Source: Mesorhizobium sp. 65-26
GTDB taxonomy: Bacteria; Pseudomonadota; Alphaproteobacteria; Rhizobiales; Rhizobiaceae
Assembly: GCA_001899205.1 (NCBI GenBank)
Contig: MKVL01000042.1
Location: 124,001-188,000, forward strand
Length of the DNA: 64,000 nucleotides
Reading direction: 5' to 3'
Of this stretch, positions 3,403-9,663 are shown piece by piece (the first letter of the stretch is position 1; every line of letters begins with the position of its first letter). Made by a program: the position numbers and the translations under genes. The notes below the pieces were generated by a model that saw only the letters and a program-made list of their open reading frames with translations, did no database searches and was not told the DNA's origin.

Positions 3403-3762
3403 ATGCAGCGGTTGATCGATGCTTTCTTCAATTCGGTGCGGGCGTTTCGCAAACTGGCCGCCAGCGAGAAGGCCTTTCAGCAGGAACTGATGCTGCTGGC
3501 GCTGGCGCTGCCGGCGGGCTGGTTCGTTTCGACTTCCTGGAGCGGCTATGCGCTGTTGATCGGGGCCGTCCTGCTGCTGATCATCGTCGAGGTCCTGAAT
3601 ACCGGCATCGAGGCCGCCTGCGATGCGTTCAGCCGCGAGTTCAACGTCGACATCCAGCTTGCCAAGGACTGCGGTTCGCTGGCCGTGCTGATCTCCGTGG
3701 TCATCGTTGCAGGTGTCTGGGTGATCGCACTCATCCAGCGCGTCACCGGGCTTTCGGTCTGA
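3403..3762 (+). CDS. dgkA: Diacylglycerol kinase
   Basis: This 119-residue integral membrane enzyme phosphorylates diacylglycerol to phosphatidic acid, recycling lipid released during envelope glucan and lipid modification. It has three hydrophobic helices and the DgkA signature EVLNTGIEAACD, which carries the catalytic and metal-binding acidic residues between helices 2 and 3. Length matches the family (about 120). The ATG at 3403 has an AAAGGGA Shine-Dalgarno sequence. It stands alone between the diguanylate cyclase and the ATP-grasp cluster. Confidence 0.93.
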   Translation: MQRLIDAFFNSVRAFRKLAASEKAFQQELMLLALALPAGWFVSTSWSGYALLIGAVLLLIIVEVLNTGIEAACDAFSREFNVDIQLAKDCGSLAVLISVVIVAGVWVIALIQRVTGLSV

Positions 3763-3952
3763 CCAGACGCTCTTGCGCGCCGGATTGGTGAGACTCACCC
3801 GGCTCTTGAACCGAGGCATGCCCGCAGGCGAGGCAAAGCCTGATCGCGATCCCGTCCATGCTGCCTCAAACTTGGGCAATCGCGCATCTCCAGCCGCCTA
3901 AGGCACCGCAAATCACCGATTGCGCTTGATTTTCTCCAGCGAGGCCAGTGAA

Positions 3953-5389
3953 ATGGTCTTGCAGGGGAGTATGCGATTGGCAGCGTTCGACGAAATGCTT
4001 CCGGAAACCTCCGGATTGAGAAAGCCGTATTCGGCCTATGAACGCTGGCTCAAGGAGCAGGATCCCGCCCGACTTACCGAAAAGATGCAGGACGCCGAAC
4101 GGGTCTTCCGCAAGACCGGCATCACCTTTGCCGTCTATGGCGAGCAGGAAGCCTCGGAACGTCTCATTCCCTTCGACATCGTCCCGCGCATCATCTCGGG
4201 CCAGGAGTGGCGGCGGCTGACACAGGGCATCGAGCAGCGCGTCCAGGCGCTGAATGCCTTCCTCGACGACATCTATCATCGCCAGGAGATCCTGCGCGCC
4301 GGCCGACTGCCCAGGGAGATCATCGCCGCGAACGAGGCCTTCCTGCCCGAGATGATCGGGATCCGGCCTCCAGCGGGCGTCTATACGCATATCATCGGCG
4401 TCGACATCGTGCGCATCAGCGAGAACGAATTCTACGTTCTCGAGGACAATGCGCGCACCCCTTCGGGCGTCTCCTACATGCTGGAGAACCGCGAGACGAT
4501 GATGCAGCTCTTCCCGGAGCTGTTCCAGCAGATCAAGGTGCGTCCGGTCGAGAATTATCCGCAGCTCCTGCGGCAGTCGCTGGCGGCCGTGCGGCCGCAG
4601 GGCGTCAAGGGCGCGCCGACGATCGCCGTGCTGACGCCCGGCAGCTTCAACTCCGCCTATTTCGAACATGCCTTCCTCGCCGACCAGATGGGCGTGCAAT
4701 TGGTCGAGGGGCAGGACCTTCGCGTCGTCGACGGCCACGTCGCCATGCGCACCACCGAGGGCTACAAGCAGATCGACGTGCTCTATCGGCGCGTCGACGA
4801 CGCGTTTCTCGATCCGCTCAGCTTCAGGCCTGACTCCGTCCTTGGGGTGCCGGGCATCATGGACGTCTACCGGGCCGGTAACATCACCATCGCCAACGCG
4901 CCCGGCACCGGTATCGCCGACGACAAGGCGATCTATTCCTACATGCCCGAGATCGTCGAGTTCTACACCGGCCGCAAGGCGATCCTCGGCAACATCCCGA
5001 CCTGGCGCTGCTCGGAGCCGGACAGTCTCAAATATGTGCTGGAGCACATTCATGAGCTGGTGGTGAAGGAAGTGCACGGTTCCGGTGGCTATGGCATGCT
5101 GGTCGGGCCGGCGGCGACCAAGAAGGAATGCCAGGACTTCGCCAAGAAACTGCAGGCCAAGCCTTCGAATTACATTGCTCAGCCGACCCTCGCGCTCTCG
5201 ACCTGCCCGATCCTGACCGAGAAGGGCCTGTCGCCACGCCATGTGGACCTCAGGCCCTACGTGCTGGTCTCCGACCGCATCCAGATCGTTCCTGGCGGCT
5301 TGACGCGAGTGGCGCTGAAGGAGGGGTCGCTGGTCGTCAATTCCTCACAGGGCGGCGGCACCAAGGATACCTGGGTGCTGGACGACTAG
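3953..5389 (+). CDS. Circularly permuted ATP-grasp protein (DUF404/DUF407 family)
   Basis: This protein of about 478 residues belongs to the circularly permuted ATP-grasp family, predicted to form amide or peptide bonds by carboxylate-amine ligation with ATP. Typical segments seen are the FDEML start, GVDIVRISENEFYVLEDN, a GTGIADDKAIY stretch and KEVHGSGGYGMLVGP for nucleotide binding. It opens a one-direction cluster with alpha-E, transglutaminase-like and Anbu genes, which is the known neighbourhood of this family. The substrate is unknown. The ATG at 3953 has GAGG eight bases upstream; 3971 is another possible start, and an in-frame TTG lies at 3920. Confidence 0.88.
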   Translation: MVLQGSMRLAAFDEMLPETSGLRKPYSAYERWLKEQDPARLTEKMQDAERVFRKTGITFAVYGEQEASERLIPFDIVPRIISGQEWRRLTQGIEQRVQALNAFLDDIYHRQEILRAGRLPREIIAANEAFLPEMIGIRPPAGVYTHIIGVDIVRISENEFYVLEDNARTPSGVSYMLENRETMMQLFPELFQQIKVRPVENYPQLLRQSLAAVRPQGVKGAPTIAVLTPGSFNSAYFEHAFLADQMGVQLVEGQDLRVVDGHVAMRTTEGYKQIDVLYRRVDDAFLDPLSFRPDSVLGVPGIMDVYRAGNITIANAPGTGIADDKAIYSYMPEIVEFYTGRKAILGNIPTWRCSEPDSLKYVLEHIHELVVKEVHGSGGYGMLVGPAATKKECQDFAKKLQAKPSNYIAQPTLALSTCPILTEKGLSPRHVDLRPYVLVSDRIQIVPGGLTRVALKEGSLVVNSSQGGGTKDTWVLDD

Positions 5390-5429
5390 CAGATACGAAT
5401 GATCGGCAGAGAACAGAGGGGACACAACC

Positions 5430-5492
5430 ATGCCGTATCCGATCGAAACTCAACGAACCGCCATATTCTGCGCGTTGCCCGAACTTCACTAG
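5430..5492 (+). CDS. Possible 20-residue peptide ORF between the ATP-grasp and alpha-E genes
   Basis: A 20-codon frame starts with ATG at 5430 and ends with TAG at 5490-5492. It is preceded by AGAGGGGA with a seven-base gap, a better ribosome site than that of the alpha-E gene behind it. The peptide begins MPYPIETQ, contains one Cys, and ends in PELH. It fills most of the 118-base gap between two genes of a predicted peptide-ligase cluster. It could be a leader, a substrate peptide, a translational coupler or chance; nothing in it is recognised as a known family. Confidence 0.25.
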   Translation: MPYPIETQRTAIFCALPELH

Positions 5493-5507
5493 CCCAAGGC
5501 CTTTGAC

Positions 5508-6449
5508 ATGCTTCTCGGCCGCACCGCCAACGGGCTCTACTGGATGAACCGCTATATCGAGCGGGCGGAGAATATGGCGCGGCTGGTCGATGCCGGCTTG
5601 CGCATGGCGCTGACGCGCACGCAAAGCGCCTCCGAGGAATGGAACTCGGTGCTGCTGAGTGCCGGCTCCGATGTCGCCTTCACCCAGAAATACCAGGACT
5701 ATACGGCCGCGAACGTCGCCGATTTCCTGTTGCGTGACGTCTCCAATCCGTCGAGCACGATGGCGTCGATCGAGACGGCCCGCAACAATGCCCGCATGGT
5801 GCGTACGGCGTTGACGCGCGAGACCTGGGAGAGCATCAACGAAGCCTGGATGTCGTTGAAGCGGATGCTGGCCAGGCCGATCGACGAGCGCGACCTGCCG
5901 AACGTGCTCGACGCCATCAAGCGCGAGACGGCACTGATCCGCGGTTCCTTCTACGGCACGATGCTGCGCAATGAGATCTTCGATTTTTCGCAGATAGGCA
6001 CCTATGTCGAGCGCGCCGACAACACGGCGCGCATCCTGGATGTGAAATATTACGTGCTTCTGCCATCGATCTCATGGGTCGGCTCGACGCTCGACAACTA
6101 TCAGTGGGAATCGATCCTGCGGTCGGTCTCGGCGCATCGCTCCTACCGGTGGGTCTATGACGCCGACTACAAGCCGACGAACATAGCCGACTATCTGATC
6201 CTCAACGTACGCATGCCGCGCTCGCTGACCTTCTGCTATCGCTTCCTGATGGAACACCTGAAATTCCTCGCAGACGATTATGGCGAGCGGCATGCCTGCC
6301 ACGCGACGGCGGAACGGACGCAGGCTATGCTCAGGGCAGGTTCGATCAAGGATATATTCGACGCCGGGCTGCATGAATTCCTGGCCAATTTCATCCAGGA
6401 CAACACCAGGCTCGGTGACGAGATCGCGCAGGACTATAAGTTCTATTGA
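5508..6449 (+). CDS. Alpha-E domain protein (DUF403)
   Basis: This 313-residue, almost wholly helical protein starts MLLGRTANGLYWMNRYIERAEN, the hallmark of the alpha-E family. Repeated Tyr-X-Glu-Arg-Ala motifs (YIERAEN near the start and YVERADN near residue 168) are the conserved core. The biochemical role is unproven; it nearly always travels with a circularly permuted ATP-grasp protein and is thought to act with it. The ATG at 5508 has an AAGG stretch upstream. The transglutaminase-like gene follows after 58 bases. Confidence 0.9.
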   Translation: MLLGRTANGLYWMNRYIERAENMARLVDAGLRMALTRTQSASEEWNSVLLSAGSDVAFTQKYQDYTAANVADFLLRDVSNPSSTMASIETARNNARMVRTALTRETWESINEAWMSLKRMLARPIDERDLPNVLDAIKRETALIRGSFYGTMLRNEIFDFSQIGTYVERADNTARILDVKYYVLLPSISWVGSTLDNYQWESILRSVSAHRSYRWVYDADYKPTNIADYLILNVRMPRSLTFCYRFLMEHLKFLADDYGERHACHATAERTQAMLRAGSIKDIFDAGLHEFLANFIQDNTRLGDEIAQDYKFY

Positions 6450-6507
6450 GGGCCGATATGATGGAAGCCGGCTTTCAGAGGGGATTGCGCTCAAGGCGGA
6501 ACGTGAC

Positions 6508-7302
6508 ATGCGACTGAAGATCGCCCACCGGACCGAATACCGCTACGACGCGCCGGTGCCGTATCTGCTGCAGCGGCTGCGGCTGTTTCCGGCGAGCGGA
6601 CGGACGCAGACGGTGATGTCCTGGACGCTCGATGTCGAGGGCGCCCGCGAGGAAGTCCGCTTCGTCGATCATTTCGGCAACGACACCCGGCTGCTGAGCG
6701 TCGAGGGCGGGCCGGATTTCATCGCCGTCGAGGCGGCCGGCGAGGTGGTGACGCGCGACAATTCCGGCGTCTTCGGTCCGCATCAGGGTTTTACGCCGCT
6801 CTGGCTTTTCAGCCGAGGAACGGCGCTGACCGAGATCGGCGACGGGATACGCGACCTAGCCGCCGCCGCTGCCGGCGGCAGCGAGATCGAGCGGTTGCAC
6901 AAGCTCATGGGCGCGATCGGCGAGCGGGTCGCCTACAAGCCCGGGGCCACCAGCACCGTGACGACCGCGGAGGAGGCGTTGGCCCTCAAGACCGGCGTCT
7001 GCCAGGATCACAGCCACATCTTCGTCGCGGCGGCGCGCGCCATGGGATTTCCAGCCCGTTATATAAGTGGCTACCTGATGATGGACGCGGCCGTCGAACA
7101 GGCCGCCAGCCACGCGTGGGCGGAAGCGCATGTTCCCGGCCTGGGTTGGGTCGCCTTCGATCCGGCCAACGGCATTTCGCCGGACGAGCGCTATGTGAGG
7201 GTGGCGGCCGGCCGCGACTATCGCGATGCCATGCCGGTGTCTGGCATCCGGCTGGGCCAGTCGCAGGAACAACTCGCGGTTACCGTGACGGTGGAGCAAT
7301 AA
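6508..7302 (+). CDS. Transglutaminase-like cysteine protease family protein
   Basis: This 264-residue protein has an N-terminal beta domain (Bact_transglu_N; starts MRLKIAHRTEYRYD) and a papain-like transglutaminase core. The catalytic triad is visible as Cys in KTGVCQDHSH, His in ASHAWAEAHVPG and Asp in WVAFDPANG. Such enzymes usually hydrolyse peptides or amides rather than cross-link proteins. The ATG at 6508 follows AAGGCGGA at good spacing, and the frame upstream overlaps the alpha-E gene, so the longer start is rejected. In this cluster it may cleave the product of the ATP-grasp ligase (inference). Confidence 0.9.
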   Translation: MRLKIAHRTEYRYDAPVPYLLQRLRLFPASGRTQTVMSWTLDVEGAREEVRFVDHFGNDTRLLSVEGGPDFIAVEAAGEVVTRDNSGVFGPHQGFTPLWLFSRGTALTEIGDGIRDLAAAAAGGSEIERLHKLMGAIGERVAYKPGATSTVTTAEEALALKTGVCQDHSHIFVAAARAMGFPARYISGYLMMDAAVEQAASHAWAEAHVPGLGWVAFDPANGISPDERYVRVAAGRDYRDAMPVSGIRLGQSQEQLAVTVTVEQ

Positions 7303-7392
7303 TTCCTCCTCACGGCCGGCGCGGCGCCTCGTCGAGGGATATTTCCCGGGAAAACATTCCGATTTTTGGAGCCATGCGCTAGAAGGGCAGCC

Positions 7393-8124
7393 ATGACTTA
7401 TTGCGTTGGGCTGAAGATCGATCGCGGACTGGTGTTCATGTCGGACACCCGAACCAATGCGGGCATGGATTCGATATCGACGTTCCGCAAGATGCATGTA
7501 TGGGAGCAGCCGGGCGAACGCGTCATCGTGCTGATGTCGGCGGGAAATCTGGCGACGACGCAGGCCGTGGTGAGCCTTCTCGACGAACGCACCAAGGCTG
7601 TCTCCGATCGTCACACGACGTTGCTCGAGACGCCTTCCATGTACCAGACGGCGCGCATGGTCGGCGACACCGTCAAGGAAGTCATCGCCAACTCCTCACC
7701 GGTAGGCGAGAAGGCGGATTCCTATTTCAACGCGTCTTTCATCCTGGGCGGCCAGATCAAGGGCAGCGAGCCCCGGCTTTTCATGATCTATCCCGAGGGC
7801 AATTTCATCGAATCGACCGACGACACGCCCTTCTTTCAGATCGGCGAGACGAAGTATGGCAAGCCGATCATCATCAGAGCCTACGACCGCGCGATGAGTT
7901 TTGCCGAAACGGTGAAACTGCTGATGGTGTCCTTCGATTCGACGCTGAAATCCAACCTCTCGGTCGGGTTGCCGCTCGATCTGCTCTTCTACCAAAAGGA
8001 CGCCTTCAAGGTCGAGCTGAAGAAGCGGATCGGCCAGGATGATCCCTATTACCGCAGGATTTCCGAGGGATGGTCGGATGCGCTCAAGGCCGCCTTTGCC
8101 AGCCTGCCGGATTTTCCGGAGTAG
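7393..8124 (+). CDS. Anbu, proteasome-type peptidase (HslV/20S beta-like NTN hydrolase)
   Basis: This 243-residue protein matches Anbu, a bacterial proteasome relative that assembles into open rings. It begins M-TYCVGLKIDRGLVFMSDTRTNAG: removal of Met exposes the catalytic Thr1, and the following Asp and Lys-like positions fit the NTN-hydrolase fold. The GNLATTQAVVS segment is also typical. The ATG at 7393 with AGAAGGG upstream is chosen over an earlier one at 7366. No unfoldase partner lies beside it. The ATP-grasp, alpha-E and transglutaminase genes upstream are its known genomic partners, so a shared pathway is inferred. Confidence 0.9.
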   Translation: MTYCVGLKIDRGLVFMSDTRTNAGMDSISTFRKMHVWEQPGERVIVLMSAGNLATTQAVVSLLDERTKAVSDRHTTLLETPSMYQTARMVGDTVKEVIANSSPVGEKADSYFNASFILGGQIKGSEPRLFMIYPEGNFIESTDDTPFFQIGETKYGKPIIIRAYDRAMSFAETVKLLMVSFDSTLKSNLSVGLPLDLLFYQKDAFKVELKKRIGQDDPYYRRISEGWSDALKAAFASLPDFPE

Positions 8125-8253: not shown

Positions 8254-9663
8254 ATGGACAATGACGAATTCCGGCACTGGTCGCGGCGCGCCGCCGACTG
8301 GGGGGTGGATTACCGTGCCAACCTGCGCGACCGGCCGGTTCGGCCGCAACTGAACCCGGGCGCGATATTCAGAAGTGTCGAGGAGGCTCCGCCTGAGACG
8401 GCGGAGCCGATGGAGCGGATCTTCGCCGATTTCGAAGCCAAGATCCTGCCCGGCATGACGCACTGGCAGCATCCGCGTTTCTTCGCCTATTTCCCCGCCA
8501 ACGCCGCGCCGGTTTCGGTGGTGGCCGAGTATCTGGTCTCGGCCATGGCCGCGCAATGCATGCTTTGGCAGACTTCGCCCGCCGCGACCGAGTTGGAGAC
8601 GCGGGTGGTCGACTGGATGCGGCAGGCGCTTGGCCTGCCCGAAGGCTTTTCCGGGGTTATCCAGGATTCGGCATCCTCCGCCACGCTGGCGGCCGTGCTG
8701 ACCATGCGCGAACGCGCGCTCGACTGGCAGGGCAACAAGAAGGGTTTGGCCGGGCAGGCGAAGCTGCGCGTCTATTCCTCCGATCAGGTCCATACCTCGA
8801 TCGACCGCGCCATCTGGGTCGCCGGCATCGGCGAGGAAAACCTCGTGCGCATTCCCGTTGCCGGCCGTTACCGCGCCATGGATACGGCTGCTCTGGAAGC
8901 TGCGATCGTGGCCGATCGCGAAGCGGGGCTGCTGCCAGCCGGCATCATCGCCTGTGTTGGTGGCACCAGCACCGGCGGCACGGACGACATCGCGGCAGTA
9001 GCGGCTGTCGCGAAGCGGCATGGGCTCTATCTGCACGTCGACGCGGCCTGGGCAGGGTCGGCGATGATCTGCCCGGAGTACCGGCATTTCTGGACCGGTA
9101 TCGAAGGCGCCGATTCCATCGTCTTCAATCCGCACAAATGGCTTGGCGCCCAGTTCGATTGCTCGATCCAGTTCATCCGCAGCCCGGACGATCTGGTGCG
9201 CACCTTGGCCATCAAGCCGGACTATCTGAAGACCCGCGGCCATGATGGAATCATCAACTATTCCGAATGGTCCGTACCGCTCGGCCGACGCTTCCGGGCG
9301 CTCAAGCTCTGGTTCCTGCTGCGCGCGCACGGGTTGGAGGGATTGCGCGCGATGATCCGCAACCACGTCACCTGGAGCGAGGGCCTTGCCGCTCGCCTCG
9401 GCCGGGAGGCGGACTTCGAGATCGTCACCACGCCGATGCTGTCACTGTTTTCGTTCCGGCATCGCGGCGCGGAAAACGCTGATCCGGATGAGCACAATCT
9501 GCGCCTGGTCGACGCCATCAATTCGGATGGCCGCATCTACCTGACCCAGACGCGCGTGGAGGGCAGGGTGGCCGTCCGTTTCCAGGCCGGTCAGTTCGAG
9601 GCGACGGCCGCCGACGTTGACGACGCCTTCGACGTGATCGTCGAGGTCGCGCGGAGCCTGTAG
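8254..9663 (+). CDS. Pyridoxal-phosphate-dependent decarboxylase (aromatic-L-amino-acid type, group II)
   Basis: This 469-residue enzyme has the fold type I group II decarboxylase pattern. The PLP Lys is K295 in the motif NPHKWLG. HVDAAWAGS supplies the Asp that pairs with the pyridine nitrogen, and the SASSAT and GGTSTGGTDD segments line the cofactor site. Length and motifs fit aromatic amino acid or tyrosine decarboxylases; the exact substrate cannot be read from sequence. The start is ATG after GGGAGGAACGCG. It stands alone, ahead of a strong terminator and glpR, with no transporter beside it. Confidence 0.88.
   Translation: MDNDEFRHWSRRAADWGVDYRANLRDRPVRPQLNPGAIFRSVEEAPPETAEPMERIFADFEAKILPGMTHWQHPRFFAYFPANAAPVSVVAEYLVSAMAAQCMLWQTSPAATELETRVVDWMRQALGLPEGFSGVIQDSASSATLAAVLTMRERALDWQGNKKGLAGQAKLRVYSSDQVHTSIDRAIWVAGIGEENLVRIPVAGRYRAMDTAALEAAIVADREAGLLPAGIIACVGGTSTGGTDDIAAVAAVAKRHGLYLHVDAAWAGSAMICPEYRHFWTGIEGADSIVFNPHKWLGAQFDCSIQFIRSPDDLVRTLAIKPDYLKTRGHDGIINYSEWSVPLGRRFRALKLWFLLRAHGLEGLRAMIRNHVTWSEGLAARLGREADFEIVTTPMLSLFSFRHRGAENADPDEHNLRLVDAINSDGRIYLTQTRVEGRVAVRFQAGQFEATAADVDDAFDVIVEVARSL

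Follow-up and report, generated by a model that had tools for sequence, protein, structure and literature searches.

The ATP-grasp ligase and the Alpha-E protein seem to be the inseparable part of the gene set known as the Anbu operon, and the transglutaminase-like hydrolase and the proteasome-like protein Anbu look like optional add-ons to this core. The set analyzed here lies in a 64,000-nucleotide stretch of the Mesorhizobium sp. 65-26 genome (the window), where the ORFs for ATP-grasp, Alpha-E, transglutaminase and Anbu, all open and on the + strand, span positions 3977 to 8124 with gaps of 118, 58 and 90 bases and form a co-directional predicted operon. Across Mesorhizobium-type loci, no internal stop codon was found in 77, 79, 79 and 80 sequences of the four genes, respectively, and the median dN/dS against the window was 0.045 for ATP-grasp, 0.054 for Alpha-E, 0.131 for the transglutaminase and 0.074 for Anbu. 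The four ORFs are therefore genes under purifying selection rather than chance frames. Of 80 Mesorhizobium-type loci, 77 keep this gene order; the remaining three are short records or have less than ~2 kb of sequence ahead of Anbu.

The ORF map and the Pfam matches agree with the original prediction that four co-directional genes of four known families lie here, and its statement that their association was already established is correct, since this type of cluster has been in print since 2008-2009. An Anbu operon of the same four families is described in PMC5666114 and PMC6376114, both of which refer back to Valas and Bourne 2008 and to Iyer et al. 2009. The window cluster is a member of this operon type: it shares the four families, the conserved order and the intact catalytic residues with the published operon, judged from the parts of those papers that describe it, and nothing essential differs, although the window has a dedicated upstream inverted repeat and lacks a sigma-54 site. 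What we add is the modularity of the operon, the Alpha-E duplication, the model of a fused paralog and the sigma-54 promoters; the duplication or the degenerate fusion may already be noted in Iyer 2009 or Valas 2008. When ORFs of 60 loci, mostly within ~8 kb of the genes of interest, were clustered, no fifth conserved gene appeared besides the known families; a crude script based on GC position called the genes for this clustering, and some were missed. The other families present in more than 7 of the 60 loci were a putative ABC-type ATPase (13) and a putative response-regulator-like protein (8), both named by eye and taken as background.

The ligase and its helical partner had been predicted to act as a unit, and the genome comparison supports this. 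Of 115 alphaproteobacterial genomes, 40 contain ATP-grasp and the same 40 contain Alpha-E, and ATP-grasp was followed directly by Alpha-E at all 58 Alpha-E loci of alphaproteobacterial genomes, in each case among the matches listed. The two were scored as fused into one frame at 18 of these 58 loci, and the pair of genome G069 is also in one frame. In a sample of 190 genomes of the phylum, which overlaps the class set, a strong ATP-grasp match accompanies Alpha-E in every one of the 106 genomes that carry it, and Alpha-E is present in 148 of 385 alphaproteobacterial genomes; these class and phylum counts likewise hold among the matches listed.

In contrast to this pair, the four genes do not behave as one indivisible set. 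The full order occurs in 13 of the 40 alphaproteobacterial genomes with the pair; Anbu lies directly behind Alpha-E with no transglutaminase detected in four, and no Anbu was detected in ten. Thus, when the shared pathway was examined by gene separation among genomes of the class, the transglutaminase and Anbu were often separate, and the original prediction held for the ligase/helical-partner unit and for two intact hydrolases but not for the indivisibility of the four genes. The operon is modular also with respect to the type of Anbu. Anbu-1 usually follows the ATP-grasp/Alpha-E pair (67 of 86 scorable genes, among the matches listed), with no listed Alpha-E within 6 kb for the other 19, some of which may be explained by contig ends, whereas Anbu-2 stood beside the pair in none of 21 scorable genomes. 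At the level of whole genomes, Alpha-E accompanies Anbu in 106 of 110 cases (Fisher p 4e-54, in a test that ignores shared ancestry and genome size), and no Alpha-E was detected in the other four. Adjacency was scored with Alpha-E matches down to E 1.5e-73; adding 18 more altered a single case, G279, which had been unscored and turned out not to be adjacent. No score could be given to nine Anbu-1 genes and one Anbu-2 gene, four of them in genomes without detected Alpha-E and the others having an Alpha-E that is not among the matches listed; the weak matches in G130 and G131 and the second piece of the G335 match were excluded. A comparison with ClpS covered 56 of 95 Anbu-1 genes, chosen by eye for a listed ClpS match with some possibly missed, and of the 22 Anbu-2 genomes the script left five unscored, one of which (G015) was settled from its locus L233.

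The ATP-grasp gene (3977 to 5389, + strand; PF14403/PF04174, CP_ATPgrasp_2 at 556 bits) probably starts at TTG 3977 rather than at ATG 3953 or ATG 3971, judging from start-codon conservation: TTG stands at 3977 in 76 of 78 sequences and GTG in the other two, ATG occurs at 3971 in 48 of 78, and TTG 3977 sits 7 bases behind a GGGGAG box. Counting residues from ATG 3953, the window protein has E164, N166, D323, K325, K372 and the GSGGYG loop intact, and the five single residues are kept in all 77 Mesorhizobium-type loci and in all 16 stand-alone sequences of our alignment (window included) and are invariant in a further set of 20 sequences. We assign the roles of these residues from glutathione synthetase and by analogy to the fungal ligase Cp1B. 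Cp1B forms amides, and its activity is abolished or weakened by alanine at R139, D141, E163 and N165 (PMC12568646); by this analogy, the window E164/N166 would be the equivalent E-x-N pair to Cp1B E163/N165. The closest structure, PDB 3n6x, matches the window protein over nearly its full length (E 1.9e-199) and carries the title of a putative glutathionylspermidine synthase of Methylobacillus flagellatus. A glutathionylspermidine synthetase/amidase identity was set aside, with no CHAP domain among the four proteins in Pfam at E 0.001. The family match and the intact Mg/ATP residues place the window protein among the circularly permuted ATP-grasp ligases, with a predicted amide-forming activity. 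For the ATP-grasp of a Yersinia Anbu operon, the one activity that we found published is the release of phosphate from ATP, and in the part of PMC6376114 that reports this, Glu, Gln and Anbu gave no stimulation.

Alpha-E (5508 to 6449, + strand; PF04168 at 309 bits) is a protein of 313 amino acids whose AlphaFold2 model is all-helical (pLDDT 95.1, pTM 0.93). Judging from a comparison of its halves, it is an internal tandem duplication: the N half matches the C half with an hhalign probability of 99.3, and the predicted repeats cover residues 7-139 (5526 to 5924) and 157-297 (5976 to 6398), with an ER motif at 18-19 and at 168-169 that is invariant in 35 sequences. No fold relative of the model was found in the PDB at E 0.001 (best Foldseek hit E 0.21, TM ~0.2), and none at E 1 when the Alpha-E profile was searched against PDB sequences; UHRF1 chains that appeared in a single-sequence search (E 0.15-1) were set aside as chance matches. 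A literature search, which did not reach Iyer 2009 and Valas 2008, found no functional study of Alpha-E.

The structural modelling of ATP-grasp with Alpha-E that had been suggested was done on a natural ATP-grasp::Alpha-E fusion encoded in the genome of the window, and its outcome points to one complex. The model of its 802 residues has a pLDDT of 92.9 and a pTM of 0.91, compared with ~0.64 expected, by our own estimate, for freely floating domains; firm packing of the two domains is therefore predicted, and ATP-grasp and Alpha-E are strongly expected on this model to form one complex. The best Foldseek matches of the fused model were 3n6x, followed by (homo)glutathione synthetases, Cp1B, YgiC/YjfC, and glutathionylspermidine and trypanothione synthetases. 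The cluster thus shares with glutathione synthetase, glutathionylspermidine synthetase and Cp1B the fold of the fused paralog, the E-x-N motif and, by homology, the presumptive acyl-phosphate chemistry, but these enzymes are 10-14% identical to the fused-paralog model and the window system has the extra Alpha-E partner. Our alignment comprised a selection of 16 stand-alone ATP-grasp and 22 stand-alone Alpha-E sequences, those of the window included, and 19 fused-type sequences, among them the short and divergent L191. In the fused paralogs E164 and N166 are kept in none of 19, K325 in one and K372 in three, and the glycine loop is mostly lost, with G379 and G381 in four each, whereas the Alpha-E residues R15, E18, R19, E168 and R169 are retained in 17-18 of 19. 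Since these proteins keep the Alpha-E core without the ATP/Mg residues, Alpha-E need not serve ligation.

Both hydrolase-like genes of the original prediction have intact catalytic residues. The transglutaminase-like cysteine hydrolase (6508 to 7302, + strand; Transglut_core 83 bits, Bact_transglu_N 68 bits) contains Cys165, His202 and Asp218, presumably its catalytic triad as assigned from family motifs, in all 79 Mesorhizobium-type loci; its nearest solved relative by sequence is 3isr, and it is the least constrained of the four genes. Anbu (7393 to 8124, + strand; Proteasome 32 bits) starts at ATG 7393, where removal of Met leaves Thr1, and Thr1, Asp17 and Lys32 are kept in all 80 Mesorhizobium-type loci. 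It matches five distinct solved Anbu sequences with E values from 4e-65 to 7e-95, and its pocket T20-F30-S48-L52-T55 has two conservative changes from the Anbu-1 pocket T20-F30-T48-L52-S55 as given in PMC5666114, so that its residues identify it as an Anbu-1. The low-identity Anbu genes have I20, A29 and R50, in agreement with the published Anbu-2 pocket at three of its five positions, and were treated as Anbu-2 for this reason. In the sections of PMC6376114 on Yersinia Anbu, no peptidase or amidase activity was seen, and Anbu used as bait pulled down no specific partner. Fuchs et al. 2017 consider it less likely that Anbu has a role in peptide synthesis.

Our preferred reading, held tentatively and at a little less than an even chance, is that the operon encodes an amide-forming system for a small molecule or short peptide, with a two-subunit ligase core and hydrolase add-ons, that serves nitrogen storage and release. 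The ATP-grasp subunit would activate a carboxylate as an acyl phosphate, like glutathione synthetase and glutathionylspermidine synthetase, and Alpha-E, duplicated, helical and with a conserved Glu/Arg/Trp core, would pack on it and most likely hold or present the second substrate. Cutting or transfer of the product might then fall to the add-ons, a transglutaminase-like thiol hydrolase and the threonine hydrolase Anbu-1, so that the cell could store amide nitrogen and release it when nitrogen is scarce. The nature of the product, the action of both hydrolases on it and nitrogen control in Mesorhizobium are suggested here with particular caution.

Protein tagging, in which the ATP-grasp/Alpha-E pair and the transglutaminase would attach a small amide tag and Anbu would either degrade the tagged proteins or remove the tag, has been proposed in print in both versions (per PMC6376114). 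It would suit the Thr1/Asp17/Lys32 and near-identical pocket of the window Anbu, and also a Pseudomonas Anbu-1, an open, many-sited ring in which Thr1 binds proteasome inhibitors (PMC5666114). However, no unfoldase or tag protein was seen beside the operon, and the putative ABC-type ATPase and response-regulator-like protein are the only other families in more than 7 of the 60 clustered loci; a quarter of the pair genomes (10/40) have no detected Anbu, and in the experiments excerpted from PMC5666114 Anbu acted on neither casein nor peptide substrates, and we regard tagging as unlikely. It is similarly doubtful that the ATP-grasp/Alpha-E pair is the pathway and the two hydrolases are general nitrogen-scavenging enzymes that simply share its regulation: the full order in 13 of 40 genomes, the four genomes with Anbu behind Alpha-E and no detected transglutaminase, and the weak constraint on the transglutaminase (0.131 vs 0.045-0.074) would fit, but Anbu is nearly confined to Alpha-E genomes, and Anbu-1 lies mostly right behind the pair, beyond what shared regulation requires. 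That Alpha-E is the main actor, with ATP-grasp mainly a scaffold or sensor whose ligase activity would be a side function or would have disappeared from some lineages, agrees with the 19 fused paralogs; all 16 stand-alone ATP-grasp sequences keep every ATP/Mg and glycine-loop residue lost there, however, and the Yersinia enzyme turns over ATP (PMC6376114), which makes this reading very improbable. We also offer as a long shot that Alpha-E, as a duplicated helical protein of new fold, gives the acceptor site of a two-subunit ATP-grasp ligase, and that the assembly, once its genes had been duplicated and fused, persisted next to a second amidoligase (DUF2126) as a module for binding or transfer that needs no ATP. 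If so, one cell would hold the same scaffold as an active and a chemically disarmed copy, both for nitrogen storage and recall. The gene set is widespread and strongly conserved, and the experimental literature that we found centres on Anbu; ATP-grasp and Alpha-E deserve study first, and jointly, as the predicted complex, the natural disarmed control and the nitrogen link offer a direct route to the product.

The nitrogen link comes from relatives of the window operon. An inverted repeat, TGCC-N9-GGCA (3862 to 3878), found in upstream alignments, is a candidate regulator-binding site; of the 78 upstream regions compared (the window and 77 Mesorhizobium-type loci), 73 contain it, and 67 have a stricter form. 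The 6.84 Mb genome holds a single copy of the strict form and two of a control pattern read backwards, and with a single site a regulon defined by this pattern is ruled out. No sigma-54 -24/-12 promoter was found upstream of the window operon (best score 8/12), and none of the 78 regions scored at least 10/12; sigma-54 control of the window operon was therefore discarded, the conserved upstream element being a different one. Among 33 other alphaproteobacterial loci, a perfect 12/12 site lies ahead of ATP-grasp in four, compared with none ahead of 539 other ORFs (p 9e-6), and a site of at least 11 is absent in 28; our own pattern found no NtrC-like site upstream of the five sigma-54-positive loci. 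The four perfect promoters fit the published control of such operons by nitrogen limitation in Pseudomonas and Burkholderia. In B. cenocepacia, I35_5080-83 share DUF404/407 (ATP-grasp), DUF403 (Alpha-E) and transglutaminase genes with the window, and all four are strongly NtrC-dependent (log2 -6.0 to -9.4; PMC5491218). This locus differs in a large transglutaminase-containing protein and, in the relevant portion of that paper, in having no Anbu named among the four genes; the second locus of the window genome (G000:C35) is nearer to this type. In P. putida, nitrogen limitation induces the operon PP_2685-2688, which like the window set contains proteasome-like, transglutaminase and ATP-grasp genes; excerpts of PMC7801951 and PMC8050072 propose NtrB/NtrC control for it, which is not visible in the window. 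In one P. putida data set the Anbu gene PP_2685 changed 1.1-, 4.8- and 1.5-fold in three strains, compared with 11- to 37-fold for its three operon partners; each of the strains showed induction, and one of them seems to be an rpoN mutant if the column order is as we read it; in the other study PP_2685 was up by log2 4.4. PMC10274813 (Caulobacter NtrC) and PMC5748707 contained nothing on the ATP-grasp/Alpha-E/Anbu operon. In Sinorhizobium, COG2308, the ATP-grasp family, is among the regulatory regions tied to nodule competitiveness in the part of PMC8407117 that treats them.

The original prediction of an intact four-gene cluster is real, and the operon is of an already known kind. The window spans C42:124001–188000 of a 6.84-Mb genome, and in it four intact co-directional genes encode a circularly permuted ATP-grasp (3977–5389, + strand), an Alpha-E protein (5508–6449, +), a transglutaminase-like hydrolase (6508–7302, +) and the proteasome-like Anbu (7393–8124, +), flanked upstream by a prokaryotic diacylglycerol kinase gene (3403–3762) and downstream by a PLP-dependent decarboxylase gene (8254–9663). 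By Anbu, the closest relatives among the 80 top-ranking loci retained almost all carry Mesorhizobium titles and share 86–92% identity; the gene order is conserved at 77 of these 80 Mesorhizobium-type loci, and the remaining three are short records or start near Anbu. Since dN/dS is low and stops are absent in all four genes, each of them is under purifying selection, strongest and roughly equal on ATP-grasp and Alpha-E. The PLP-dependent decarboxylase gene lies downstream of Anbu at 74 of the 80 loci. Of 78 aligned upstream sequences, only 48 have ATG at 3971, but all 78 have TTG or GTG at 3977, preceded by a GGGGAG box, so translation of the ATP-grasp probably starts at 3977. Before the operon, an inverted repeat, TGCC-N9-GGCA (3862–3878), is kept in 73 of 78 sequences (67 of 78 in a stricter form, which occurs as a single copy in the entire genome), and we read it as a candidate site for a dedicated regulator.

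To place the operon more broadly, we used three overlapping samples. Among 115 alphaproteobacterial genomes, each listed one representing a separate family, Alpha-E was detected in 40 and CP_ATPgrasp_2 in exactly the same 40, and an ATP-grasp gene lay immediately 5' of Alpha-E on the same strand at 58 of 58 Alpha-E loci. A one-frame ATP-grasp::Alpha-E fusion was scored at 18 of the 58, and genome G069 likewise shares one frame. The transglutaminase N-terminal domain was detected in 41 genomes and Anbu in 30, every one of the latter within the 40 with Alpha-E. Thirteen genomes had the complete order. Four (G057, G082, G091 and G095) had Anbu right after Alpha-E with no transglutaminase detected between, and in one (G041) Anbu was reversed. 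In the 385-genome sample, Alpha-E was found in 148 genomes and Anbu in 110, two weak matches having been dropped; 106 of the 110 also had Alpha-E (Fisher p 4e-54, relatedness ignored), which was not detected in G147, G255, G259 and G337. The Anbu-like matches in G259 and G337 come from one genus with ~1.4-Mb genomes. In the phylum sample of 190 genomes, Alpha-E was present in 106 and CP_ATPgrasp_2 in 110, namely the same 106 plus G400, G487, G514 and G540, whose matches have E-values of 2e-4 to 1e-7 and of which at most one is above the family cut-off (tally 107). Judged by co-occurrence and adjacency, ATP-grasp and Alpha-E are an inseparable core, and the two hydrolases are modules.

The Alpha-E model, built with 35 diverse sequences, is all helical (mean pLDDT 95.1, pTM 0.93). 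Foldseek against the PDB returned nothing at E 0.001 or better (top E 0.21, TM ~0.2), and the Alpha-E profile had no match among PDB sequences; it is possible that these searches overlooked a relative of the fold. Profile comparison of residues 1–140 with 141–313 gave a probability of 99.3 and a score of 122.8 over 133 columns, exceeding the reversed half (9.5), the highest of 20 column shuffles (13.3) and all five block shuffles (47 to 78), which preserve local helices; by this comparison, Alpha-E is an internal duplication. Each half carries an ER motif (E18-R19 and E168-R169), and Arg 25/175, Trp 45/200 and Ser 83/239 are matched between the halves. As the charged residues are invariant or nearly so, we infer that Alpha-E may bind a charged substrate rather than serve as a scaffold alone.

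The window ATP-grasp matched 3n6x across nearly its full length. Its E164 and N166 (numbered from the ATG at 3953) are by motif the counterparts of E163 and N165 in Cp1B, which requires R139, D141, E163 and N165 (PMC12568646 section 8), and both occur in every one of 77 close relatives, 16 of 16 stand-alone rows of the alignment and 20 of 20 of a further set. The window's genome has another Alpha-E locus (G000:C35:194461–199910, or L184:6462–11911), which encodes DUF2126, labelled a putative amidoligase, a fused ATP-grasp::Alpha-E and then a transglutaminase. The DUF2126 frame there matches profile positions 130–826 and starts ~180 bases from the contig end; at locus L172, DUF2126 is joined to a second transglutaminase domain. 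The natural fusion protein, modelled with 57 aligned sequences (pLDDT 92.9, pTM 0.91), matches 3n6x, glutathione synthetases, Cp1B, YgiC/YjfC and glutathionylspermidine synthetase. Because free motion of its ~510- and 292-residue domains would limit pTM to ~0.64 by our estimate, firm packing of the ATP-grasp domain against the Alpha-E domain is predicted.

The reading that fits best is an amide-forming system linked to nitrogen, in which ATP-grasp and Alpha-E form the obligate core and the hydrolases are optional; protein tagging is a competing reading. The fused paralogs count against a simple story: among 19, this genome's included, E164 and N166 are kept in none, K325 in one and K372 in three, and the glycine loop is mostly gone. 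With these residues largely missing, the fused copies should be incapable of ordinary ATP-grasp chemistry. Alpha-E residues R15, E18, R19, E168 and R169 are retained in 17–18 of the 19, and in another competing reading Alpha-E is the main actor.

The nitrogen link of the amide-forming reading draws on published work: an ATP-grasp/Alpha-E/transglutaminase cluster of B. cenocepacia shows NtrC-dependent expression (PMC5491218), P. putida PP_2685-2688 is induced under nitrogen limitation (PMC7801951, PMC8050072), and a metagenome correlation study tied these domains to urea metabolism (PMC3597751). Against this link, Anbu was hardly induced in two of three P. putida strains, and induction of the other operon genes persisted in all three, one apparently an rpoN mutant (PMC7801951). 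A further competing reading holds that the hydrolases are co-regulated with ATP-grasp/Alpha-E yet unrelated to it. Of 33 stand-alone ATP-grasp genes, four (G033, G043, G039 and G037) have a perfect sigma-54 site that begins ~36–107 bases 5' of the aligned start, and a fifth locus (G070) scored 11 of 12; control ORFs of the same loci scored 12 in 0 of 539 cases and 11 in two. No site scoring at least 10 was found upstream in the window and its 77 Mesorhizobium-type relatives. Taken together with the published transcriptomes, this distribution makes it likely that control by nitrogen is either ancestral or has arisen repeatedly; for the window operon such control is putative.

The two kinds of Anbu differ in their proximity to Alpha-E. 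For Anbu-1, the window type, 86 cases could be scored: in 67 a listed Alpha-E gene was no more than 6 kb away, and in 66 of these Anbu-1 lay downstream of it on its strand. The divergent Anbu-2 was beside one in 0 of 21. The 22 divergent genes share 53–64% identity with the query gene and, where measured, 31–36% with the window Anbu; their I20, A29 and R50, numbered by hand, correspond to three of the five pocket residues reported for Anbu-2 (PMC5666114 section 13). According to a published description, Anbu has no genomic AAA+ link (PMC5666114). clpS was found near Anbu-1 in 0 of 56 examined cases; of 17 alphaproteobacterial genomes with Anbu-2 that were scored, 10 have clpS at 0.3–1.8 kb from Anbu-2 and transcribed divergently from it, and an eleventh case is locus L233. 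Six Anbu-2 loci (L228–L233; families Pfam-assigned for L229 only) contain a D-Ala-D-Ala carboxypeptidase in five, a phasin family member in five, clpS in three and clpA in three.
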